Assembly (NCBI RefSeq): GCF_007489275.1
Contig: NZ_VLNR01000002.1
Location: 62,001-126,000, forward strand
Direction: 5' to 3'
Length of the DNA stretch: 64,000 bases
DNA from: Aquimarina algiphila
GTDB lineage: Bacteria; Bacteroidota; Bacteroidia; Flavobacteriales; Flavobacteriaceae
Part shown: one piece after another, positions 7,364 through 45,560 of the stretch
How the letters are laid out: each line of letters opens with the position of its first letter
Position numbering within the stretch: position 1 is the stretch's first letter
Notes under the pieces: generated by a model
What the model saw: the letters and a program-made list of their open reading frames with translations, nothing else
Databases searched by the model: none
What the model was told of the DNA's origin: nothing
Translations under genes and position numbers: made by a program

Positions 7364-8719
7364 ATGTGTAATGTGTATTTTAGATATCGATCTAAAAAAG
7401 ATATCGGAAAACTTGACGTTAGATTTCGATATGAAGAGATAAATTACGAAAAACAAACAACAACTCCTATTATCGTTTCCCGTAAAAATTGGAATCAAAA
7501 AAAACAAAGAGTTAGAACATCTTCTAAATTCGTATACCCCGTTGAAAATACGAATATAGCAAAATTAAAAAAAGCAATTTACGATAAGTTTAATACCACA
7601 ATAAGTTTAAACGAAGGGTTTCACGATAATTGGTTATCTGATATTGTAGAAGATATTTTTAAGAGACCGGAACATGAGAAAAAGAACGTAGACCGAAAAA
7701 GGATATATTATGTAGATTTTGCAAAATATTGGTTAAAGCATCATGCAAAAAATCATGTTGGTAGAAACGGTAAGCTTATGAGTAAAGCAAACTTAGAAAA
7801 GTATATTGATTTCATCGATAAATTAGAAAAAAAGACCCCTAACATTGATTATGAAAATCTTAAAATTAAAGATATGGGTAACGCTTTTGTTGTGAAGTTT
7901 GTAAAGGAATTGTTTAAAAAATATGCAGCAAAATCGATTAGCTTAGACTACACTTATTTAAGATTTTTTCTTAGCAGGGCGGTAGAAGATAATATTGAGG
8001 TGGATAAATCATATTTGAAAAAAGTAGCTATAGAAGATAAAAAAGAGACTGTGATTATGCCATATTTAACCAGTGAAGAGGTTGAAACAATATACAGGCT
8101 TGAAATAGAGGACAAAGAACTTAGCCGTTTTAAAACTGCTTTTGTTATTGGTCTGGTTACAGGTTTACGAGTAAGTGATGTTACAGGTTATCACAAGCGT
8201 ATAAATGAAGAAACAGGAGAAAAAGAATATTCTTTAGAGAACCGACACATTGAAGGGAATCATATCCGCTATAAACCTTTAAAAACAAGAGGGGCAAAAG
8301 GCGGTATAGAGGTTTCTATTCCTATTCATCCTTTTTTAAAAGAAATATTAGAAGAACATAACGGCTTACCCGATAGAAGCGTAAAGTACTTATTAAAATT
8401 TAATAATGCGGTTAAAACCATTATAGAAATGGCGGGTATTACTAGAATTGTAAAAACCTCTCAAAAGAAGTTTCTTAAAGATGGTATATTTGAAGTCCCA
8501 ATATACAAAGAAGCAACGAGCCATATCATGCGACAAAGTGCCGCAACTAATTTATTTGGTAAAGTGCCAAAATCAGCGATTATGGCAATGATGGGATGGA
8601 CTAATGAAGATCAAATGTTAGAATATATTAAATTATCTGGTATTGAGAGAGTAAAAGGAATTAAAGAATTATATGACAATGGAAACGAGAGCGTCGAGAA
8701 TCTTAAAAGAAGTGCTTAA
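7364..8719 (+). CDS. tyrosine recombinase (phage integrase)
   Basis: This 451-aa protein carries out site-specific integration and excision of the element. Order: a short N-terminal arm-binding-type domain (about 1-60, with VYFRYR and a WNQKKQRV end), a SAM-like core-binding domain (about 110-225) and a C-terminal catalytic domain (about 235-430). Catalytic residues can be seen: R269 in TGLRVSD, H387 and R390 in HIMRQSA, W412 in MMGW, and the nucleophile Y421 in MLEYIKLS. Size and layout match Bacteroidota phage and conjugative-element integrases. It is divergent from the host genes and is preceded by tandem repeats. A small HTH gene overlaps its 3' end by 47 nt. Confidence 0.95.
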   Translation: MCNVYFRYRSKKDIGKLDVRFRYEEINYEKQTTTPIIVSRKNWNQKKQRVRTSSKFVYPVENTNIAKLKKAIYDKFNTTISLNEGFHDNWLSDIVEDIFKRPEHEKKNVDRKRIYYVDFAKYWLKHHAKNHVGRNGKLMSKANLEKYIDFIDKLEKKTPNIDYENLKIKDMGNAFVVKFVKELFKKYAAKSISLDYTYLRFFLSRAVEDNIEVDKSYLKKVAIEDKKETVIMPYLTSEEVETIYRLEIEDKELSRFKTAFVIGLVTGLRVSDVTGYHKRINEETGEKEYSLENRHIEGNHIRYKPLKTRGAKGGIEVSIPIHPFLKEILEEHNGLPDRSVKYLLKFNNAVKTIIEMAGITRIVKTSQKKFLKDGIFEVPIYKEATSHIMRQSAATNLFGKVPKSAIMAMMGWTNEDQMLEYIKLSGIERVKGIKELYDNGNESVENLKRSA

Positions 8720-10295: not shown

Positions 10296-10430
10296 TTACG
10301 CCCTGTCGAATATATCAGCTCTTTTACAGTCCTCACTACAATACGTTTTCTCTGTGGGTAAGCCACAGAAGAGACATTCTTTTTCTGGCTGTTCTGGTGG
10401 CGTTTGCGTTTTCCATTCATCATAGGTCAT
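10296..10430 (-). CDS. 44-aa zinc-binding protein
   Basis: ATG 10430 to TAA 10296 encodes a 44-aa protein with CLFCG and CSEDC, a CxxC...CxxxC arrangement that probably binds one zinc ion. It is rich in acidic residues at the start and has no signal peptide. It overlaps the preceding gene by 11 nt, so the pair is likely co-translated. Such mini zinc-ribbon proteins are common in phage operons; function is unknown. Confidence 0.65.
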   Translation of the reverse strand: MTYDEWKTQTPPEQPEKECLFCGLPTEKTYCSEDCKRADIFDRA

Positions 10431-10653
10431 TTTGTTTGTTTATTCTAGGATAATATTTATCATAATAATGTTCATATAATTCAAAAATTTTTTCCCACCA
10501 TTTAGGTTGTTTACTGTTCGGGTTTTTAGGAAAAACCATTGTGCCTAATTCTTCTTTCCATCTTCCATTTTTCTTTTTAGCCACAATGATTTTATATCCT
10601 CGCATAGTGTGTTGAGGGTATATTTTAAGACCATGCTTAATACACCAACTCAT
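10420..10653 (-). CDS. conserved-type small phage protein
   Basis: This 77-aa basic, aromatic protein (MSWCIKHGLKIYP start, KKNGRWKEELG centre, ELYEHYYDKYYPR end) looks like a small conserved phage protein of Bacteroidota, although I cannot assign a function. I prefer the ATG at 10653, which follows an A-rich stretch. A GTG at 10683 overlapping the upstream stop (GTGA) would add ten residues and is the alternative. Confidence 0.6.
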   Translation of the reverse strand: MSWCIKHGLKIYPQHTMRGYKIIVAKKKNGRWKEELGTMVFPKNPNSKQPKWWEKIFELYEHYYDKYYPRINKQNDL

Positions 10654-10679
10654 TTTTTTATGACTGCTTTCGGCTGCCC

Positions 10680-11471
10680 TCACTCTTTACAAAAGATATT
10701 AAAGTTCAGTTCACCTAATTCTATGTATTGATTATTAGGCACTGTGAACCATCCCGCAACCCCGAGGTAATCTGGTCGGTTTTCAAGGACATTTGCATCT
10801 ACTCCGATTTGAAGCATTTTACCAATATCTTTTAACTGCAAGTCTACTGTTCCATCTACGCTTTTTATCCATCCTTCAAAGGAGGTGTAATAATTCCAGA
10901 GCGAACCATCAACATGAAAACATTGATGTGTTGTGTTGTCTTGTGGAGTATCTAACTTTCCAGTGAATTTAATTTCAATTTCATAGCGTTTATTGGTTTT
11001 GTTATTCTGAACATTTCCGCATAACAAAGCGGTTTTATCGTCCTCGTATTCTATGAAGTGTAACCCATTTTCAGAGAGAAAAACATCGGGTTTATGTTGG
11101 ATTGAAAGTTTAATAACAAAACGTGTTTGTACTCTTGCACATAGTTCCGTATTTATGACTTTGGTACAACGTTTTTCTTCGATGTATCTACAGTCGTAAA
11201 TATCTACAACATTATCCCCGTTTTGATCTGTCAAACCATCATAACAGTTTTCACCATCTGCTCCATCTTCTCCATCTGTTCCATCTTCTCCATCTTCTCC
11301 ATCGTTGCCATCTGTTCCATCGTTGCCATCTTCGCCATCCGTTCCATCTTCTCCGTCTTGTCCGTCTTGTCCGTCAAGTCCCTGAATAGTTGGTATTTCT
11401 TCGTTTTTTTCTACTGCTGTACACCCGAACCCCAAGGATAATACTAGCAAAATGATTAGTGCTTTTTTCAT
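10680..11471 (-). CDS. collagen-like repeat lipoprotein
   Basis: This 263-aa protein has a lipoprotein-type signal (LSLGFGC, Cys17). It is followed by 15 uninterrupted G-x-y triplets at residues 31-75 (GxD units, mostly GED, GTD, GND, GQD), then a cysteine-containing globular domain of about 180 residues. Collagen-like triplets can form trimeric stalks, so a trimeric, membrane-anchored, possibly surface protein is inferred. Here the Y position is almost always acidic and there is no proline, unlike animal collagen. It sits directly downstream of the OmpA-like gene (5 nt gap) and probably forms a cell-envelope pair with it. Confidence 0.7.
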   Translation of the reverse strand: MKKALIILLVLSLGFGCTAVEKNEEIPTIQGLDGQDGQDGEDGTDGEDGNDGTDGNDGEDGEDGTDGEDGADGENCYDGLTDQNGDNVVDIYDCRYIEEKRCTKVINTELCARVQTRFVIKLSIQHKPDVFLSENGLHFIEYEDDKTALLCGNVQNNKTNKRYEIEIKFTGKLDTPQDNTTHQCFHVDGSLWNYYTSFEGWIKSVDGTVDLQLKDIGKMLQIGVDANVLENRPDYLGVAGWFTVPNNQYIELGELNFNIFCKE

Positions 11472-11476
11472 GGTTA

Positions 11477-12463
11477 TTATTTTTTGATTGTTATGGTTAC
11501 GTTTTTATTTAAGTGTTGGTGGTTATGTACTTGGTCTACCCCGTAACCTGTAGATGTGTACTCTTTTTTTAGTTCTTCCTCAAGGAATAATTCTACCGAT
11601 TTTGCCCGTTTTTCACTAAGTTTTAAGTTTAGCTTTTTAGAGCCATGAGTACCACAAGCATAACCATTAATGGTCACGGAATAATTAGGATTATCCTTGA
11701 TGGTTTGGATTGCTTTTTTCAAGGTGTTTACTTGCCCTGTTTCTATATAGGTTTTCCCTTCTGAAAAGAAAATGTGATAGGTGTATTTTTTAGGTACTTC
11801 TTTTACACAATCATTGCAATTATAGTTATTAACAATTGCGGGTTTTTCTATGATCTCTTTAGTGAAGTGTTTTTCAATGATTCTAGGCTCTTTTTTCTCT
11901 TCTTTTGCCTCTGTTAAATTGATAGAAATACTAAGCCCTGCATAGTAGGTAAAACCGTTCGCACCTCTCGCATTTGTTGGTTGGTTAGGGAATCCAATAG
12001 GGGTTCTTAAAGAGTATAAATCTTTCCCTCCAACTTCTAACCCAAGGGAAACAATATTGTTAAGTCTAAAAGTGTTAAGAATCCCGTAATTCATTGTTAA
12101 TACATCTTGATCTTCATAGTGTGAAGCTCCTACGCCAATAAGGGGGTAAATCCTCCAAAATTTGTATGGTCTACCCGCTATGCTTTTTAGGTTAAATAAG
12201 ATATCTAAATCAAGCCCATAATATCCCGTATCATAGCCTGTATCATTATCTTTTAATGCTCCGGCACTTAGTACTAGCCTTGGTTTTATCCAATTATCAA
12301 ATTCATAAGCAAGTCCTACGGCTGCGTGTTCTGCTACCTCGCTTGTGCTTGCCTCGTCGTAATAAAAATTACCTCCGGCTCTTACTTCCAGAGAAAGTTG
12401 AGAATAACAAAATGCTGTTATCATCAAAAGCCCCATTGTTAAAATTTTTGTTTTCATTTTCAT
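11477..12463 (-). CDS. OmpA family outer-membrane protein
   Basis: This 328-aa protein starts with a signal peptide (GLLMITAFCYSQ), then a beta-barrel-like region (about 22-185) with alternating aromatic strands such as GVGASHYED and FTYYAGLSISINL. A linker with a NCNDC cysteine pair follows, then a C-terminal OmpA/MotB peptidoglycan-binding domain (about 230-328) including INGYACGTHGSKKLNLKLSEKRAKSVELFL as its key region. Such proteins tether the outer membrane to the cell wall. An OmpA-like protein inside a prophage replication arm is unusual; it might alter the lysogen surface or act in lysis. Five base pairs separate it from the collagen-like lipoprotein gene. Confidence 0.8.
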   Translation of the reverse strand: MKMKTKILTMGLLMITAFCYSQLSLEVRAGGNFYYDEASTSEVAEHAAVGLAYEFDNWIKPRLVLSAGALKDNDTGYDTGYYGLDLDILFNLKSIAGRPYKFWRIYPLIGVGASHYEDQDVLTMNYGILNTFRLNNIVSLGLEVGGKDLYSLRTPIGFPNQPTNARGANGFTYYAGLSISINLTEAKEEKKEPRIIEKHFTKEIIEKPAIVNNYNCNDCVKEVPKKYTYHIFFSEGKTYIETGQVNTLKKAIQTIKDNPNYSVTINGYACGTHGSKKLNLKLSEKRAKSVELFLEEELKKEYTSTGYGVDQVHNHQHLNKNVTITIKK

Positions 12464-12467
12464 TGAT

Positions 12468-13244
12468 TTATTTGTTAGTATTTACTCTGTTTTTAATCTC
12501 CCCCTGTATGATTTCGACGTAGTGTTCTAAATCTTTTCTTAACAACCAATTTTGCGCCACTTCTTCTAATTCTTCGACGGTTTTTGTTTTGCACAACTCC
12601 CTTAATTCATCCATAAAACCTTCTTCAAAATCAATAGATTTAGGCGGGTTTTTATGCAGTGTTTCAGACAAGGTTTGACTTAATTCTTTTTTTTTAGGCG
12701 TTTTAATGCCTTTAAACATCTCTTTAGCAACTTCTGGATCAATACCATCCTTGCTCATAGAAAATCCGTTAGAGCGTCCCTGTGACATCATAGAGCCTAT
12801 GTCAAGCCTCTCTGACCAGTAGCGATTTAACCAACTTAAAATTTTATCTGGCGAGAGACTTTCATAGAAATTTCCGTAAACACCTTCTTTGATATTTCTA
12901 AAAAAAAGCGTTAGATCAGTGATTTTTAAAGGATATTGACGACATATCCCTTCTGCGATAAAAGAAATTTGTGATTCTGTCAATAAATTTTTTACGCTGA
13001 TTGAGTTGTTTAAATCTGTGACCCAAAGCTCAACGTAAGAAATTGTAAAATCCTCACCATATTCTTTTTTAAAACTTCCAAGTGTTTTACTAGGTAGATT
13101 TATAGCGTCTTCGATGGTTTTTATTTTTAGTTTACCATGCTTAAAACAGTTGGCAGGGCTAAATAAGTCCAAGGTTTTTTTTAATTCTGTCTTGAAACTC
13201 TTGGCTGTAGATAGGCTTTTGTCTAGTTTGTTGCTCTTGTCCAT
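12468..13244 (-). CDS. phage replication-module protein of unknown function
   Basis: This 258-aa soluble protein has a central segment (ICRQYPLKITDLTLFFRNIK) that I recall from small Bacteroidota phage and plasmid proteins found after a replication initiator, possibly the DUF6633 type. The C-terminal third is helical and charged. No catalytic motif is visible. The ATG at 13244 overlaps the upstream gene by 86 nt. A TTG at 13169 would reduce this to 11 nt, so the start is uncertain. It is probably co-expressed with the DnaD-like gene and may assist replication (inference from position). Confidence 0.55.
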   Translation of the reverse strand: MDKSNKLDKSLSTAKSFKTELKKTLDLFSPANCFKHGKLKIKTIEDAINLPSKTLGSFKKEYGEDFTISYVELWVTDLNNSISVKNLLTESQISFIAEGICRQYPLKITDLTLFFRNIKEGVYGNFYESLSPDKILSWLNRYWSERLDIGSMMSQGRSNGFSMSKDGIDPEVAKEMFKGIKTPKKKELSQTLSETLHKNPPKSIDFEEGFMDELRELCKTKTVEELEEVAQNWLLRKDLEHYVEIIQGEIKNRVNTNK

Positions 13245-13974
13245 TTGTTCTAAATATTATTTCATCGTTCCAACTTTCGTTATTCAGGTAGGTTTCTGGA
13301 TTTTTTCGATATTGTTTTTCCGGTTGTGAGATTTTATATTTTTCTACGTGCTGCATTATTTTTAATTTTTCAGCATGAGAAATCATTTCCCATTTTTTTT
13401 TAATGTTTTTTTTCTTACCAACTTTTTTATCGTAACAATTCCAAAAATCTTCAAACGTTGGAAAAATTTCTACTTCGGCATAGGTTATATTCTTAAGTTC
13501 TTCTCTTTCTTTTTTTTCTTTTATTTCTTCTCTTTCTTTATTTCTTATATTCTTTAGTTGTTGCGATTTGTCTGCGATTTGTTTGCGATCTGTCTGCGAT
13601 TTGTTTGCGATCTGTCTGCGATCTGTCTGCGATTTATCTGTTAAGTTGCTTGTCATCAACTCTTCTTTAATTTGCATTTCTTCCCATTTGACAAGGGTTA
13701 TGAGCTGAAATTTGTTTGTTGTTTTCCTTGTTACTTCTCCGCTATCTTCTAGTTTTTTCATTGCGGTTCTGCATTGACTTACTGATAGTTTTATTTGTTT
13801 AGCGAGATTTGCCCAACTTAAAACCATCGACCCCGATTTAATTACAATACCACGCCATTTTTTATCTTCAAAATTGACGGAAAGTAAAAGATGAACTAAA
13901 AGGCGAGAAGTATTAGAATCGTCATACCACTCCCATTTTAAAAATGACCTATGTAATTTTACCCAACCACTCAT
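13159..13974 (-). CDS. DnaD-like replication protein
   Basis: This 271-aa protein starts MSGWVKLHRSFLKWEWY, a start typical of phage replisome-organiser proteins with an N-terminal winged helix. The winged-helix region (about 1-100) includes SWANLAKQIKLSVSQCRTAMKKLEDSGEV as key part. A linker contains a short repeat based on Q-T/I-x-D/N-x-x-Q (about 105-145). The C-terminal region with FWNCYDKKVGKKK and PETYLNNESWND resembles the DnaD/replication C-terminal motif with a YLN-x(2)-W end. I prefer ATG 13974 over the upstream GTG 14043, which would translate through a hairpin. Confidence 0.75.
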   Translation of the reverse strand: MSGWVKLHRSFLKWEWYDDSNTSRLLVHLLLSVNFEDKKWRGIVIKSGSMVLSWANLAKQIKLSVSQCRTAMKKLEDSGEVTRKTTNKFQLITLVKWEEMQIKEELMTSNLTDKSQTDRRQIANKSQTDRKQIADKSQQLKNIRNKEREEIKEKKEREELKNITYAEVEIFPTFEDFWNCYDKKVGKKKNIKKKWEMISHAEKLKIMQHVEKYKISQPEKQYRKNPETYLNNESWNDEIIFRTNGQEQQTRQKPIYSQEFQDRIKKNLGLI

Positions 13975-13990
13975 TTTTTTACTTATAAAA

Positions 13991-14059
13991 AGAGAGAAGC
14001 TAACCTTAAGATTTCTCCGGCTTGCGTCCAAGAGGTTAGCCACCGCATTGTTTCTCTCT
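13991..14059. repeat. long bulged inverted repeat upstream of the DnaD-like gene
   Basis: AGAGAGAA-GCTAACCT (13991-14006) pairs with AGGTTAGC (14033-14040) and, after an 11-nt bulge, TTCTCTCT (14052-14059), giving 16 bp of stem. It lies in the leader of the DnaD-like gene and just after the stop of the preceding gene, so an RNA-level control or processing site is possible. Confidence 0.5.
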
Positions 14060-14893: not shown

Positions 14894-14988
14894 ATCCTTT
14901 TAAAAACAGGGGAGATAAGATAATTTTATTCCCCAAAATTATTTCTTCGCCTTATCTGTATTCCCCTGTTTCCTGCTTAAAAATTAAC

Positions 14989-17019: not shown

Positions 17020-17904
17020 TTAACCTTCTATTTCTTGTAATTGGTTTTGCAATGCCGTTTTATGCTCTGGTGACATTGTTTTGTACTTTGTACCATACCG
17101 TGTAAGGGTCGCTTTTATCCCCTGCGGGGTACTCTTCATTGCCTTATTAAATTGTTCTTCTGTAAGGAATACGATTTCAGGCTCTTTGATTTCTTTAGGT
17201 GCGCTTTCTACGGGTTCATTATCTACATACCTGTATGAACCTTCTTCTTCCTGTACTGCTTGATCCGCTAAGTGTGCGGTTTGCATTTGGACACTCATAA
17301 TTCCCCACTTGGAGATTGTATTTTTAATCACAGTTTTCTTTGCCATTGCATCAAACTGTTTCGTCCAAGGTGAATTTTTATCTCCGTAAGATGTACTGTA
17401 TTTTTTTGCGTGATCGATCACTTTTTGTTTGCTCCAAAAAACAGTTTTTTCCATACCGTTGTGAAGCCTAAAATAAGCCGCATATCCAACTACTTCGCCC
17501 TTACCTACAAGATTGAAATTCGCTACAATTTCCTCGGTTAACGCATTGTGCGCAGTGAATTGATTTTCGTATACCTCTGTAACATTTAGTTTTTTGTATT
17601 GCCCCGATCTAATGGCGAGTTGAACAAAACCTTTCCATCCTACTTGAAACTGTGCTTTTCCTTTATACGCCACAACCCACGCAAAACCTAAACTTGGATT
17701 TATGGGAAGGTCTAGGATTGCGGCTGTGGCTACTGCGTGGAGGACTGTTTGCGGATCAGCCGAACTAAGGTATTTGTCTGAATTGACAACCTGTAATGCG
17801 GATGATATATAACTTTGTGCTTTTTCGCCTAGTATAGACTTAAATTGATCTTGGATTGAGTCCTGCATGAAGAGAGTAGTAGCAGGGGTTAATGAATTAG
17901 CCAT
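17020..17904 (-). CDS. recT: RecT single-strand annealing protein
   Basis: This 294-aa protein matches the RecT family: ADPQTVLHAVATAAILDLPINPSLGFAWVV with the GxAW-type core, KAQFQVGWKGFVQLAIRSGQYKKLNV, VYENQ, and a WTKQFDAMAKKTVIKNTISKWG segment are the diagnostic blocks. It anneals complementary single strands during phage replication or recombination, normally with a 5'-3' exonuclease. No exonuclease of the RecE or YqaJ type is recognisable in this operon, which is odd. The C-terminal 60 residues are a variable tail. Confidence 0.92.
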   Translation of the reverse strand: MANSLTPATTLFMQDSIQDQFKSILGEKAQSYISSALQVVNSDKYLSSADPQTVLHAVATAAILDLPINPSLGFAWVVAYKGKAQFQVGWKGFVQLAIRSGQYKKLNVTEVYENQFTAHNALTEEIVANFNLVGKGEVVGYAAYFRLHNGMEKTVFWSKQKVIDHAKKYSTSYGDKNSPWTKQFDAMAKKTVIKNTISKWGIMSVQMQTAHLADQAVQEEEGSYRYVDNEPVESAPKEIKEPEIVFLTEEQFNKAMKSTPQGIKATLTRYGTKYKTMSPEHKTALQNQLQEIEG

Positions 17905-18448: not shown

Positions 18449-18866
18449 TTTAAAAAAATTATATACGGTTTGAGAAGCTAGATAATAGCCTCATTTAAAA
18501 TCTTGATTGTGCGCTCGAATTGAGCCGGATTCTTTAGGTGATTTCTGACGTATGTCTGCTCGAAGTAGAGCCGAATTCTTTAAAATATTGTACGCGAAGT
18601 ACTGCTCGAATTGAGCCGGATTCTTTGGTAATCTAAATGTAATTTTGCTCGAATTGAGCCGGATTCTTTAAATAGTAACTTACAAGAGATTCGCTTTTGG
18701 GAATACTTAAGCTGAATTATGTGTAAGCTTGTGTTTTAGAGGGATACCAAATTAAACTATTTTTTTGATATAACAACGGTTTTATTCGTTTTTTTTAAAC
18801 ATAGTTATTAAAATACGTGTGTTTCGTACAAAAACATAACACTCACAGGTATTGGGAAACATTGGG
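18449..18866. other. non-coding region with iterons, between ejection gene and recombination operon
   Basis: This 418-bp gap carries four regularly spaced repeats (18513-18670) and an AT-rich remainder. I found no gene in it. It must contain the promoter of the minus-strand HTH-recT operon and could be a replication origin. Confidence 0.6.
18513..18670. repeat. four iteron-like direct repeats, about 45 bp apart
   Basis: Copies start at 18513, 18558, 18604 and 18647. The shared unit begins GCTCGAATTGAGCCGGATTC and ends TTTA or TTTG; the second copy differs slightly and is one base longer. Spacing is 45, 46 and 43 bp, about four helical turns, so all copies face the same side of the helix. Each unit contains GCTC-N5/6-GAGC. 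Confidence 0.85.
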
Positions 18867-40174: not shown

Positions 40175-41620
40175 ATGAACAAATCATTTGTATGGGGCTT
40201 GCTATGCATTGCCCTGACCTATGCGCAGACTTCTTTTGCGCAGGACTGTACTGAAAAAGTCGCAGTCGCCAAAGATTATTTACCTGTTTTAGAATTCCTA
40301 ACAACAGAGCACAAAAAAGATTTAAAGGAAAGCATTATTCAATGCGCTAACAACGGAAACGAAGAGGCGCAATACACTATTGCAGTCCTTAATCTTTCAA
40401 TTAACCCAAGTGAAGGGCAACAAAAACTTTCTTTTACAACTATTAAGCAAAGGGCTGAAAGTGGAGATACTTCCGCGTTTGGAAAACTTGCTATGTTGTA
40501 TAAAAAAGGAATAGGAACAGACGTGAATTTAACTGAATCATATAAGTGGTTTGATAGAGCCGCAGGAGATGGCGATTCGTTTTCTACGTATGCATTAGGT
40601 TATTTTCAAATGAAAGGTCTTGGAGAGGCAAGACAAGACTATTCAGGCGCACAAGATTGGTTTCAATCTGGAGATGAACCAATGGCTGAACTTTGGTTTT
40701 ATGTTATGCGATATTTTGGCTATGGCATTTCAGCAAACAAACCACAAGCAATTAACGCTCTTAATGCGTTGAATACCCCTGAAAGCAATACATTGGCTCA
40801 TTATTTAAGAAACCAATACGTTGAACCCTCTTCCCTGTCAAGTATAGAGGATTTTGTTATAAAAAACATGGATAACCCATTGTATAACAATCCTACAGGA
40901 ACAGCTTACGACACTAGCACCGACTTAAAAAATGAGTACACAGGGAAGTTAGTTGAAATGGACTGGAAAAAACAAACACCAACCAGAGTAATAAACGAGT
41001 TCAAATTAAAAATCTTAGATAGAGAATCATACTATCCCAGATACTCTATAACCATAGGAACAACAACTAAGACAGGTGCATTAAAAATTAATTCAGGAAG
41101 CCTACAATTAGAAAATCTTACTTTTCCTATTGAGGAATTATACAGAACAAATCCAGACAGGGATTTTGTAACGCTTAAACTTGGAGGAATAGACTTGAGT
41201 TACGTTAAAAGCACACCTACAGAACCAAGTGAAGCCAAAGAAGTGGGACGTTTACACGCCTCTATTGTAGAGTACGATGACGAACCCGCACCACCTATAT
41301 TCTTATTCCTCGATGCAGTAGATAAAGAACCAGAAGTACCGACACCACCAACACCTCCCGCAGTTGCAGAAATCACAAGTGTTTCACCTAATCCAACAAG
41401 AGGTAGAATTACGGTTCATTATTCAAAACCGGAAATAGCGGACTCATATTTAGTTTTAGATCAAGGAGCGAGAGAACTTGCAGTTTCAAAAATAAACACT
41501 AAAACAGGAGATTTTCAACATTCGTTTGACGACCTACTCTTCTATCCTTCAGGAGTTTATTACGTGAGGCTTTTTATAAATGGCAGAGCTGTAGACACTA
41601 AACAAGTTGTTAAACAATAA
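40175..41620 (+). CDS. Sel1-repeat protein with T9SS sorting domain
   Basis: This 481-aa protein has a signal peptide (LLCIALTYAQTSFAQ) and at least two Sel1/TPR-like repeats (SGDTSAFGKLAMLYKKGIG, DGDSFSTYALGYFQMKGLGEA; about 95-170). After a beta-rich middle comes a P-rich linker (PEVPTPPTPPAV) and a C-terminal type A T9SS sorting domain of about 84 residues from residue 398, with SVSPNPTRGRITV and PSGVYYVRLFINGRAVDTKQVVKQ as key parts. It should be exported across the outer membrane by the host type IX system and may be attached to the surface. It is the first gene of the cargo cassette, 12 nt upstream of the toxin gene. Confidence 0.85.
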   Translation: MNKSFVWGLLCIALTYAQTSFAQDCTEKVAVAKDYLPVLEFLTTEHKKDLKESIIQCANNGNEEAQYTIAVLNLSINPSEGQQKLSFTTIKQRAESGDTSAFGKLAMLYKKGIGTDVNLTESYKWFDRAAGDGDSFSTYALGYFQMKGLGEARQDYSGAQDWFQSGDEPMAELWFYVMRYFGYGISANKPQAINALNALNTPESNTLAHYLRNQYVEPSSLSSIEDFVIKNMDNPLYNNPTGTAYDTSTDLKNEYTGKLVEMDWKKQTPTRVINEFKLKILDRESYYPRYSITIGTTTKTGALKINSGSLQLENLTFPIEELYRTNPDRDFVTLKLGGIDLSYVKSTPTEPSEAKEVGRLHASIVEYDDEPAPPIFLFLDAVDKEPEVPTPPTPPAVAEITSVSPNPTRGRITVHYSKPEIADSYLVLDQGARELAVSKINTKTGDFQHSFDDLLFYPSGVYYVRLFINGRAVDTKQVVKQ

Positions 41621-41632
41621 AACTATCCTATT

Positions 41633-44092
41633 ATGAAATCTATATATAAAATTTTGATAATAGGTATAGTGTTCCTATTATCAGCTAACAGTCACGCTCA
41701 ATTTGAATCAAAAACAGATATTACAGATTTTGATGAATACGAAGCTAAAGCAGGTCTAAACGCCTGTTATTGTGATTCAGAATTAGCTTACAATTTACTT
41801 CTACAACGATTAGACCAATTAGAAGGTCAAAGAAAACAGGAGTGGTTAGAAGGGCAACAGGTAAGGCTTAAAAATGAAATTGACCGAAGACTCAACGAAA
41901 CACATCCTAATTATGCAGAAGCGGAAAAACAGCTTTTAAAAAGACATTACAAAGGCGATAATGATGCAATTATAAATCCATTAGCAGAACAAGCTAGCAA
42001 AAACTCTTTTGAGGACAAGAGAAAAGTTCAACAAAGAAGAGTTGAATATAATGTTTTAACTCATAGAGACGATGTAAGCGATATATTAGCTGATTATACT
42101 TTTGGTGATTTAACAAGCAAAGGGGTTAAGATCAAGGGTATGACACGCAGTCAAATTTTTGATAGAAGAAGAGAAATTCTTGATGAAATAAACCACACCT
42201 ATAAACCCTCTGCAAATGCATCGTCTAAATTTTGGGATGGACTTAAAAAAGTTATTGACCAAGAATATATTTTAAACCGAATGGCTGAATTAGCCAAAGC
42301 ACGTTATGACTCTTATAGCGTAGAGAACAGAGTAAAAGTAATAACAAAACTACTTGTAGAGCGAAATTTCGGTAATGGATGGGGAGCATATAATGAGGTG
42401 CCCTTGGTTTATAACACTAATGAGCATAACTATAGAGATTTAGCCCTTATTAGAGCCGATCAATTAGGAAATGTACAAAGCATCCCTCCAACAGAGCCAA
42501 CAGGTGCAGAGTCAATAGCAGCTCACGCTTTAACTAATATTAGCCCAAGCGTTTTTGCTAACCTATACCAAAACGAGAAGTATAAAGACATAACAAGTGA
42601 AATAAACAAGTTCTTTAACAGATCAAACTATCACTTTGCTTCAATACGATCATTACGTAATGTAATAAACTTTCAAGAAAGCTTATTGCCACGAGTAAAC
42701 GCAAGTGATGTAAGTAGCTATGGGATACCTCCAGTATATCAGTCTGCTTCAAACACAGAATTAGCAATGTCGTTTCGTGCAGATCGTGACGCACCAAATT
42801 ACCACACATGGAGAGGAGTTGGAAACGTATTAGCAGAAATGTACGAAACCGACTTTTTACCAAACAGCTTGCAACAAGAAGGGTTTATAATAGCAAAGAT
42901 TTTTAATAGTAATGGTATTAGTGTTCCTGATTGGGTTACAAACCAAGCCCTTGGAGAAATATTTGATTTTAACAAAACTCCATATGGCGGTAAACCCGGG
43001 TCTAATTTTTATTATCGTTTTGAAGTTATATTTAAACCCTCTATTGGTATACAGCTTTGGAATCAAAGTATAAATATAAATAACTTATTTGATGATCCTA
43101 TACATATCGAAGGGGCTTCGGCACTAGCTAGAGGTGAATCTTTTAATTTTGCTTTTAGAAAAAAAGTATATGCTTTTTCTAATGCCTTAAATCTTAATAC
43201 AAGTCAAAGAGATTGGCTAATTGATGATAAAAACAGGAAAGAATTTGATATTTTATATGACTTTTTTGAAAATAATGGATACAATGTTGATAATGTAGAT
43301 TTTGGTAGGCAGTCAATAGTAACATTTATGAATGAAAACATGATACTTCCTGTAATTTCTTTCGATCAAAATTTTCCAAGATCAACTTACATGAAAGAGA
43401 TTGTCAGAATGAATAAATGGATCAGACTTTTCGGTAATCGAGAATTAGGACAATTTATTGAAGCTATAACACCAAACCTTCCAAGCCTGACAAATCAAGA
43501 ATTGTATAATTTATATAGCTTTACTTGGGAAGCACATAAAGACCTTAAATTAGCATATTATAGAATTCCAATTGAAACAGTTGTGGTCTTCCAACCATTT
43601 GTAGAACTTATTCTTTTTGATACAGGAATTGGGGTAGCGATTGCATTATTAGAAAAACTCCCCGCAGCAATTAGATCGGCAGAGATACTAGCAATAATTA
43701 ATCGTTTAAGATCAGCGTCTCAATTTGGAGAATTAAAACACGCCAAAACATTTGGAATTAACACATACAATTCATTAGTTAGCACATTTAAAGCTTTGGG
43801 GTTGTCAAGGTTAAAAATGGGGGTTCAATTTCATCATTTATTTGAACAACGATTTGTGACACAATTAAAAGCATTACTAGGAGCAAATACAGGGAAATGG
43901 GAAAGTGTAGTTTTAACAGTAGAAGAACACCAAAAAATTACCCAAGCATGGAGAAGAATAATTGGGTATAATGGACAAGCAGTAGGAACAAGTGGAAAAG
44001 TCACAGCTACAGCAACACTAGCAGACATTCAAGCAGCAGCTAAAGAAGTATATAAAAATTATCCAGAAATATTAAAAGCACTAGGACTATGA
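41633..44092 (+). CDS. secreted polymorphic-toxin-like protein with HNH-type C-terminus
   Basis: This 819-aa protein has a signal peptide (ILIIGIVFLLSANSHAQ), a long N-terminal region of no known family (about 25-640), and a hydrophobic stretch at about 640-690 (VVVFQPFVELILFDTGIGVAIALLEKLPAAI). Its last 90 residues look like a toxin nuclease: GVQFHHLFEQRF (His734, His735), SVVLTVEEHQKITQAWRRIIGY (His766), and a final helix ending YKNYPEILKALGL. This H-H...E-H...W arrangement recalls HNH/endonuclease-VII-like toxin tips at the C-termini of Rhs and contact-dependent toxins. There is no T9SS tail on this protein, so the partner gene may help its export. The stop overlaps the next start by 4 nt. 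Confidence 0.75.
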   Translation: MKSIYKILIIGIVFLLSANSHAQFESKTDITDFDEYEAKAGLNACYCDSELAYNLLLQRLDQLEGQRKQEWLEGQQVRLKNEIDRRLNETHPNYAEAEKQLLKRHYKGDNDAIINPLAEQASKNSFEDKRKVQQRRVEYNVLTHRDDVSDILADYTFGDLTSKGVKIKGMTRSQIFDRRREILDEINHTYKPSANASSKFWDGLKKVIDQEYILNRMAELAKARYDSYSVENRVKVITKLLVERNFGNGWGAYNEVPLVYNTNEHNYRDLALIRADQLGNVQSIPPTEPTGAESIAAHALTNISPSVFANLYQNEKYKDITSEINKFFNRSNYHFASIRSLRNVINFQESLLPRVNASDVSSYGIPPVYQSASNTELAMSFRADRDAPNYHTWRGVGNVLAEMYETDFLPNSLQQEGFIIAKIFNSNGISVPDWVTNQALGEIFDFNKTPYGGKPGSNFYYRFEVIFKPSIGIQLWNQSININNLFDDPIHIEGASALARGESFNFAFRKKVYAFSNALNLNTSQRDWLIDDKNRKEFDILYDFFENNGYNVDNVDFGRQSIVTFMNENMILPVISFDQNFPRSTYMKEIVRMNKWIRLFGNRELGQFIEAITPNLPSLTNQELYNLYSFTWEAHKDLKLAYYRIPIETVVVFQPFVELILFDTGIGVAIALLEKLPAAIRSAEILAIINRLRSASQFGELKHAKTFGINTYNSLVSTFKALGLSRLKMGVQFHHLFEQRFVTQLKALLGANTGKWESVVLTVEEHQKITQAWRRIIGYNGQAVGTSGKVTATATLADIQAAAKEVYKNYPEILKALGL

Positions 44093-44940
44093 TAAAAAAA
44101 CACAGCATATTTGCGAATTGGAGAAAAAAAGATGTTGACTTTTTAGCAAATCTTGGAATCACAATTGAAGAAGGTTATTTTTCTTTTCTTATTGAAGAGG
44201 GGTCTGTTTACAACGAAATAATAAAGCATTACACTGAAAATAAAGGTTTTTTTGTAAACAGAACACCTAAAGAATTTTCAAGCAAATTTGCTGTGGTTGA
44301 GTTTTCTATGGAAGAATTGGACAATTCAAAGTATTTCGTTTTACAAAACATAGGAAAACCAAAAGGGTATCCCTTTCCTAAAAACAACTTTGACAAAATG
44401 ACCGAAGAAACATATACAAATTATTGTAAAAAATGTGAATCTAATCGTCAACAAAAAGCTCCTTTTAAAATAGAAAAAGAGCCTAAATTGTCTAAAAACC
44501 AAGTAAACTTTTCTTTCCATACAATTTTTGATGAAATGTTTTTTAATATAGATTTTTTCCAAGAGGTTTTAAAACCTCTTGGATTAAAATCTAAAGAAGT
44601 TTTAATTGGGAACACAGGTGTTCCTTCTAAAAATGTTGTTCAGCTCATAATTCCAGAAGCAGAAAGCTCTTTGTTATTAGATAATTCTGTATATGATATA
44701 AATACCTCCTGTGAAATTTGTGATACAAAAAAATATACTCAACAAATTTTAGGATTCATGCCTTCATTTAAAACGGACTTTGATTTCTTAATATGCAAAA
44801 CGAAAGAATTTTTTGGAGAAACAGAAACCCGTCAGGCTATGAGGCGAATAATCATATCTAAAGAATTTTGTGACATATTAGTTAAACATAAGATAATTCA
44901 TTATAACACAAATGAAATTTACCCAATAACTAATAAATAA
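44089..44940 (+). CDS. candidate immunity protein
   Basis: This 283-aa protein has no signal peptide and is therefore cytoplasmic, where a nuclease toxin would have to be blocked. It starts with an ATGA overlap of the toxin stop, the classic coupling of toxin and immunity genes. Two CxxC pairs (CKKC near 113, CEIC near 208) suggest a zinc site. The sequence is otherwise unfamiliar to me; polymorphic-toxin immunity families are diverse. The call rests on position and topology. Confidence 0.6.
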   Translation: MIKKHSIFANWRKKDVDFLANLGITIEEGYFSFLIEEGSVYNEIIKHYTENKGFFVNRTPKEFSSKFAVVEFSMEELDNSKYFVLQNIGKPKGYPFPKNNFDKMTEETYTNYCKKCESNRQQKAPFKIEKEPKLSKNQVNFSFHTIFDEMFFNIDFFQEVLKPLGLKSKEVLIGNTGVPSKNVVQLIIPEAESSLLLDNSVYDINTSCEICDTKKYTQQILGFMPSFKTDFDFLICKTKEFFGETETRQAMRRIIISKEFCDILVKHKIIHYNTNEIYPITNK

Positions 44941-45005
44941 ATATTATAAAAAACCATATTCGAAGAACAATAAGAAAACTCTTATATAACCTAAACAAAT
45001 AACAA

Positions 45006-45560
45006 ATGAAAAAAACAATTCTATTATTAAGTATTATAACCGCAATGGTAATGTTTGGATGTAAATCTGATGATGAAGAAGTGCCAGAAAAATTTGATCA
45101 TTTTGATTATACTCAAGAAGAAAAAAACGCAGAAATTGAAAAGATAAGGAACTACATTAAAGACAACAGCATTGAAGGAATGACAGAAACCGAGGATGGT
45201 ATGTTTTATCGTATCGAAAAAAAAGGAGAAGGACTAACTGGTGAAAATTTTCAAGATGTAACTGTTTCTTTTGAGATAAAAATTACAAGTACAGGAGAAA
45301 TTGGCTTTGGACATGGTGATAAAGATATCTATCCTAATGGTGCAATATGGGATTTTTTTGGTTTTGAAGGTCTTTATGAAGGAATAGAAGACAGTATTGA
45401 ACTAATCAATGAAGGAGGTGAGATTTTTTCGATTATTCCTCCTTATATGCATATTGGCAAAAATGACCCTAATACTGGAGAAGATATATTTGAAGAACAA
45501 TACGATGAAATTGTGACTCTTAAACTAGAATTAAAGCATCTTATACGATATAGAAATTAG
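45006..45560 (+). CDS. FKBP-like lipoprotein
   Basis: This 184-aa protein has a lipoprotein signal (MVMFGC), and the mature N-terminus CKSDDEE resembles the Bacteroidota lipoprotein surface-export signal of Lys plus acidic residues. The rest follows the pattern of FKBP-type peptidyl-prolyl isomerases: a helix IEKIRNYIKDNSIEG, TEDGMFYRIEKKGEG, strands VTVSFEIKITSTGE, IELINEGGEIFSIIPPYMHIG and a last strand TLKLELKHL. Some active-site aromatics look altered. It ends the cassette and could fold, anchor or protect against the toxin. Confidence 0.65.
   Translation: MKKTILLLSIITAMVMFGCKSDDEEVPEKFDHFDYTQEEKNAEIEKIRNYIKDNSIEGMTETEDGMFYRIEKKGEGLTGENFQDVTVSFEIKITSTGEIGFGHGDKDIYPNGAIWDFFGFEGLYEGIEDSIELINEGGEIFSIIPPYMHIGKNDPNTGEDIFEEQYDEIVTLKLELKHLIRYRN

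Follow-up and report, generated by a model that had tools for sequence, protein, structure and literature searches.

The window analysed here, the whole 64,000-nucleotide stretch, is part of a 7.0-Mb genome of Aquimarina algiphila in 271 contigs (G000:C112:62001-126000), and a prophage was found inside it. A 68.7-kb record of IMG/VR (IMGVR_UViG_2897748404_000006) holds identical copies of both proteins described below; from the offsets, it would start at about window position 8673 and end beyond the right end of the window. An integrase-like gene lies at window 7364. The terminase and portal proteins are 48% and 43% identical to those of Cellulophaga phage phi46:3, which its own record places in Pachyviridae, Bacelvirus, and by sequence the prophage appears to be Pachyviridae-like. 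In the original prediction an OmpA-family protein and a lipoprotein were said to adjoin in the replication/recombination arm of a phage, and both open reading frames were indeed recovered there, with RecT, SSB and DnaD-like genes upstream on the same strand. The features of the arm are as follows.

10420..10683, minus strand: next gene of the operon, with a weak PHROG 5945 match, overlapping the lipoprotein stop
10680..11471, minus strand: collagen-like lipoprotein, 263 aa, ATG start, with lipobox LGFGC, acidic stalk and C-terminal head
10680..11237, minus strand: head region of the lipoprotein, residues 79-263 (homology to secreted-protein modules of the host genus)
11247..11381, minus strand: 15 acidic G-x-y triplets, residues 31-75
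11477..12463, minus strand: OmpA-family protein, 328 aa, ATG start (ORF, PF00691, AlphaFold2 model, Foldseek)
11573..11770, minus strand: core of the OmpA C-domain, residues 232-297, with Cys270 at the Asp position and Arg286 kept (Pfam, alignment)
11918..12403, minus strand: predicted 8-strand outer-membrane barrel, residues 21-182 (AlphaFold2 model)
12468..13244, minus strand: upstream gene of the operon, PHROG 35728, its stop 4 bp before the OmpA start
13159..14043, minus strand: DnaD-like helicase loader or replication initiator, same operon
17020..17904, minus strand: RecT-like annealing protein, same operon
18449..18866, no strand: region presumed to be the early promoter/operator, with four 24-nt repeats

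Read leftward from the repeat region, the arm carries an excisionase-like gene, RecT, three genes of no known function, SSB, a Lar/endonuclease-like gene and the DnaD-like loader, followed by the PHROG 35728 gene, OmpA, the lipoprotein, the gene with the weak PHROG 5945 match and a PHROG 5931 gene. OmpA and the lipoprotein are part of one leftward operon with RecT, SSB and the DnaD-like gene, in which 4 bp separate the upstream stop from the OmpA start and 5 bp the OmpA stop from the lipoprotein start, and the lipoprotein stop is overlapped by the start of the following gene (GTGA). The pair is not set apart from the other genes of the arm by GC content (OmpA 35.5%, lipoprotein 38.1%, remaining genes 31.8-38.1%). 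The four 24-nt repeats, which contain GCTCGAATTGAGC or a variant of it, lie 43-46 nt apart at window 18513-18670, upstream of the excisionase-like gene, and look like an iterated operator. About 7.6 copies of an 11-bp unit were seen within the DnaD-like initiator gene (window 13558-13640) and may be replication-origin iterons, like those in lambda O.

Other cargo was noted in the same prophage. A module on the opposite strand of the late region (window 40175-45560, plus strand) encodes a Sel1 protein, which scores narrowly below the cut-off for a T9SS sorting domain, and a secreted-looking 819-aa protein, the end of which resembles a nuclease by eye. The module also holds a putative immunity gene and the gene of a GldI/FKBP-like lipoprotein whose export-like signal is acidic, and it may be secreted toxin cargo. 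To the right of the window, close to where the prophage should end on that side, a 140-aa ORF (L094:12979-13401, contig C112) has a lipobox with SSDDD after it, which fits well the lipoprotein export signal considered below.

The OmpA-family protein matches PF00691 at 37.5 bits (cut-off 27.2) and consists of a signal peptide (by eye), an 8-strand beta-barrel, a linker with CNDC and a C-terminal OmpA domain. In an AlphaFold2 model built from four sequences (pLDDT 64, pTM 0.45) eight barrel strands are followed by a loose linker and the OmpA C-domain. A Foldseek search of the PDB placed E. coli OmpA at the top, then OprF, a Thermus OMP, NspA and Ail. Probability was 1.00 to OmpA, OprF, NspA, Ail and OmpX, with target TM-scores of about 0.5-0.6 for these five, for a model with a whole-model pLDDT of 64; over the list as a whole TM-scores were modest, about 0.3 by query and 0.3-0.6 by target. 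In the search against proteins of solved structure, only OmpA-domain relatives were obtained (10 sequences at E 0.01). The term porin, used in the original prediction, was an overstatement: the model is that of a small barrel of OmpA/OmpX size with an OmpA C-domain, and the predicted fold is not that of a classical porin. Residues 221-297 also match PHROG 7897 (E 1.6e-6), the phage OmpA family to which the phi17:2 type belongs, but an unspecific model that matches 55 of 56 bacterial genomes as well. When 188 genomes, the own genome included, were searched with the protein, 89 matched at 1e-5, and among the matches listed all but the own one begin at residue 186 or later, that is, they cover the C-domain only. 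Whole-length relatives (21-31% identical) were found in three MAGs (L027, L028 and L029), and the surroundings in L027 and L029 appear chromosomal by eye.

The description of the second protein as a lipoprotein with 15 acidic G-x-y triplets proved accurate. It matches the PF01391 collagen family at 36.5 bits (cut-off 27.2), and its glycine run stays in register for exactly 15 triplets, or 45 residues, 20 of which are acidic, with no lysine or arginine and no proline. The lipobox LGFGC, with the cysteine at residue 17, was read from the sequence and with a home-made pattern that also matches the N-termini of the window OmpA (..ITAFC) and of the OmpA of phage phi14:2, both of which are by eye ordinary signal peptides. 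In Capnocytophaga canimorsus an acidic signal was reported to drive surface export of lipoproteins, and two other Bacteroidota have related motifs (PMC5080379). In the SusD-like proteins of the own genome an acidic residue stands at +2 to +4 after the cysteine in 11 of 11 cases; the first acidic residue of the phage lipoprotein is at +5, and this signal was not found in it. For a signal defined in species outside this genus (PMC5080379), its absence would count against a simple surface display of the lipoprotein.

The head of the lipoprotein, about 185 aa, has matches in 30 of the 188 genomes (own included), 29 of them in its own genus. In other genomes the matches reach E values down to 2e-20 and, the own gene apart, fall in open frames between 415 and 2115 aa long, with 25-40% identity in host-genus modules and an alignment that spans most of the head. 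Ten fetched stretches yielded eleven proteins with the module; a T9SS-like C-terminus was recognised by eye in ten, and the eleventh is cut at a contig end. Since it matches these large host-genus proteins, the head is a host-type module of apparently secreted proteins. The architecture differs, as the host-genus proteins are long and five of the eleven have two or three copies, whereas the phage protein combines a single module with a lipobox and a stalk. A predicted model of the head alone (pLDDT 31) was set aside, and the solved-structure search with the head returned nothing usable.

Searches of INPHARED with either protein gave no match at E 1e-3. In a search of viral models (BFVD) the top match of the window OmpA was R9ZWT8, the OmpA protein of Cellulophaga phage phi17:2 (TM 0.41), and it was through structure search only that these relatives surfaced. 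In a single BLASTP comparison the two proteins are 26% identical over residues 1-296 (E 6e-10). The phi17:2 protein is 98% identical to that of phi4:1 and 47% to that of phi14:2, a phage classed in Crassvirales, showing the same gene in all three. An IMG/VR scan with two patterns from the phi17:2/phi14:2 OmpA returned phi4:1 and phi14:2 only. The OmpA proteins of phi17:2 (gp171), phi4:1 and phi14:2 (g002) are the nearest phage relatives found, and they resemble the window OmpA in length and layout. Like the window gene, that of phi17:2 lies near replication genes, being close to exonuclease, replication-initiation and ribonucleotide reductase genes. The neighbours differ: a Band-7/SPFH protein with a lipobox (gp169, two genes before gp171; L156:31187-33070) in phi17:2, an 85-aa protein with a signal-like N-terminus preceding g002 in phi14:2, and the collagen-like lipoprotein in the window. 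No collagen-like lipoprotein was found in phi17:2 or in the two examined phi14:2 stretches, and no collagen-like partner of OmpA was observed in phi4:1. Since phage OmpA genes are already annotated in public records, the window OmpA adds a member to an established family; its partner, a collagen-like lipoprotein whose head is of host type, is new. In the open literature searched we found no report of such a pair, nor of a phage OmpA in exclusion.

The suggestion to look for the pair in other phages led to one further virus. IMG/VR scans with OmpA and both flanking genes returned the same prophage only. The lipoprotein matched 16 loci, this phage and 15 others, and an OmpA gene is present in one of the latter (L040); the other 14 were set aside, as their matches are driven by the collagen run. 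PF00691 was detected in 2 of 47 viral records (the own phage, the 15 lipoprotein loci and 31 RecT relatives), namely this phage and L040. In L040 (IMGVR_UViG_3300031576_000007, 112 kb) an OmpA gene lies directly upstream of a collagen-plus-DUF7151 lipoprotein on one strand, the gene order being that of the window. Unlike in the window pair, the OmpA domain is N-terminal and the lipoprotein head is DUF7151. The ORFs of 16.6 kb of L040 gave no match at 1e-3 to the phi17:2 genome, phi46:3, the window or the phi14:2 stretches, so no kinship with the window phage was detected and the two viruses are apparently unrelated by sequence. A host OmpA query retrieved 35 INPHARED records, some of them bacterial-looking by size and gene names (e.g. 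Acinetobacter phage MD-2021a). Six were opened, Microcystis phage MaAM05 and phage G being judged from their gene tables; the four unannotated ones have no collagen-like neighbour (by eye, ORFs of at least 70 aa, first 260 residues). In the MaAM05 record (L137) pomA and fliM adjoin the annotated ompA, which resembles a flagellar stator gene, and the record looks bacterial. In three metagenomic phage records (LR756500, LR756501 and LR756511; L134, L135 and L136) the OmpA-domain ORF has by eye an ABC-transporter permease-like gene in its vicinity, joined in two of the records by an ATPase-like gene.

A terminase search at 1e-20 across 385 genomes (own included) gave a sole other match, 68% identical, in genome G019 of the same genus. 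This terminase (L141, G019:C1:829919-832141) is reported with two in-frame stops and lies near a contig end; the prophage is probably decaying. The gene next to the window lipoprotein on its downstream side has a homologue in G019 (49% over 75 aa), which there directly follows a 614-aa replication gene and overlaps its end; by eye this replication gene is primase/helicase-like. The fetched stretches of this prophage contain neither an OmpA domain nor a lipoprotein-head match. The absence of both genes from the related prophage suggests that the pair is an accessory (moron-like) envelope cassette. An insertion of the pair is likely, although only the downstream neighbour is common to the two prophages and the upstream ones are different. 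No OmpA domain was found in phi46:3 (whole), ctfjg026 (50 of 60.9 kb) or elemoE 6-9C (50 of 60 kb), and in genome G044 the two stretches that carry a homologue of PHROG 35728 had neither an OmpA domain nor a lipoprotein-head match.

It was originally suggested that the two proteins could modify the surface of the lysogen. In lysogenic conversion the pair would be expressed in the lysogen and build a new adhesive or protective surface from the host-type module, which we regard as possible but rather doubtful. The integrase-like gene at 7364 and the kinship of the head with modules of the host genus's large secreted proteins agree with it, and lambda offers a precedent in lom and bor, a prophage-borne small outer-membrane barrel and a lipoprotein; the likeness is one of description, and the lambda genes lie apart whereas those of the window adjoin. 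What weakens this suggestion is that it needs expression in the lysogen, yet the genes are in an early operon and two simple scans gave no convincing promoter of their own. The Bacteroidota -33/-7 consensus pattern had no minus-strand match between window 6000 and 20000, with a -7-only match at 14941, upstream within the operon. A sigma-70 scan gave 37 sites in the arm where shuffles gave 39.4; three of the 37 are on the minus strand inside OmpA, for a pattern at chance frequency. Because the pair has no convincing promoter of its own, early lytic expression appears more likely than lysogen-only expression. Conversion is further weakened by the related OmpA genes of two phages: the annotation table of phi17:2 shows no integrase, and phi14:2 is assigned to the crAss-like phages, for which an inability to form lysogens has been described (PMC8375218). 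The missing export signal of the lipoprotein also speaks against it.

A role in lysis by linking the outer membrane and the wall had also been proposed, and this we disfavour because the wall-binding pair of the window OmpA is without its Asp. In Acinetobacter baumannii OmpA, D271 and R286 were reported to be critical for association with DAP, on the basis of the D271A and R286A mutants (PMC6572160). We aligned 41 OmpA domains, four from phages (window, phi17:2, phi14:2 and L040) and 37 from hosts, the latter being the best search matches and hence no random sample. The Arg is kept in all 41 rows, and the Asp in 37 of 37 host rows and, unlike in the window, in the L040 protein. In three of the four phage proteins the Asp is absent, with Cys in the window (Cys270, beside the kept Arg286) and Ser in phi17:2 and phi14:2; this loss, as read from the alignment, is a new point common to the three. 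It would suit a different role in lysis, in which an OmpA unable to bind the wall would compete with the host's own OmpA and loosen the envelope at the time of lysis. Such weakening of the outer membrane seems improbable to us, as the pair is in the early and not the late region, has no inner-membrane partner, and the L040 OmpA keeps its Asp. Compared with spanins, in which an inner-membrane and an outer-membrane partner are encoded in the lysis cassette, the pair lies in a replication operon and neither protein seems to resemble an inner-membrane spanin.

Accidental capture of host genes, with no phage function, was to be expected if the same pair stood in core chromosomal positions. No host copy of the pair was found in the 188 genomes (own included), where the listed non-own OmpA matches are C-domain only and the non-own head matches lie in frames of at least 415 aa. 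The occurrence of the exact pair in one phage only and its absence from the related G019 prophage would fit a capture, but the reading frames are intact, the operon spacing is tight and the pairing recurs once (L040), and we consider a functionless passenger quite unlikely. That the pair holds up the outer membrane of an infected cell until it lyses, as OmpA and stalked outer-membrane lipoproteins act as envelope spacers, is very unlikely, for the lost wall-binding Asp argues against a tether even if the stalk would measure about 13 nm (computed) when extended as a collagen helix.

We therefore favour, with a probability of roughly 0.4, early envelope remodelling by a temperate podovirus, most likely superinfection exclusion or receptor masking; the exclusion of other phages, also raised in the original prediction, is our best single guess. 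The pair would be made early in infection, OmpA would insert in the outer membrane of the host and the lipoprotein would be anchored next to it in the same membrane. Together they would alter or cover the surface, or act on a receptor from the periplasmic side like Llp of phage T5, so that further phages, sister particles included, could no longer adsorb or inject and progeny would be spared loss on cells already occupied. The head, from a family of host secreted modules, might serve as a mask or as a contact to a host surface protein, and OmpA without its wall-binding Asp would sit in the membrane and not take over the wall tether of the host. This reading is supported by the operon position with RecT, SSB and the DnaD-like gene, with its 4-5 bp spacing and GTGA overlap; by the absence of the pair from the G019 prophage; by the OmpA proteins of the same length in phi17:2, phi4:1 and phi14:2; by the recurrence of OmpA with a collagen-like lipoprotein in L040; by the head shared with host-genus modules; and by the loss of the Asp in three of four phage proteins. 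Precedent is given by T5 Llp, described as a periplasmic lipoprotein of the outer membrane whose action on an outer-membrane protein excludes superinfection, and many superinfection-excluding proteins are reported to be made early (PMC9586334). Both Llp and, as proposed, the window protein are phage-encoded outer-membrane lipoproteins, likened by description; the latter differs in its collagen-like stalk, large head and own outer-membrane protein partner. Against exclusion we count the PADLOC matches, which are weak for OmpA (E 0.0018 and 0.0055) and nil for the lipoprotein, the missing surface-export signal, the recurrence in one other virus only, the lack of a collagen-like partner in phi17:2, phi4:1 and phi14:2, the different upstream neighbour in G019, and promoter-like matches that allow lysogen expression.

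A broader and much more speculative view, which we think improbable, is that Bacteroidota phages repeatedly carry a two-part outer-membrane device, an OmpA without the wall Asp together with a lipoprotein, for early takeover of the cell, with a host-derived module as camouflage or hook. To our knowledge the alteration of the envelope by Bacteroidota phages, crAss-like relatives such as phi14:2 included, has been little explored. A family of phage OmpA proteins in which the wall-binding Asp is lost, and which stands beside a lipoprotein in two phages, offers a concrete two-gene target. If the pair is an exclusion system, it would be one made of a barrel and a stalked lipoprotein that bears a module common to the secreted proteins of its host.
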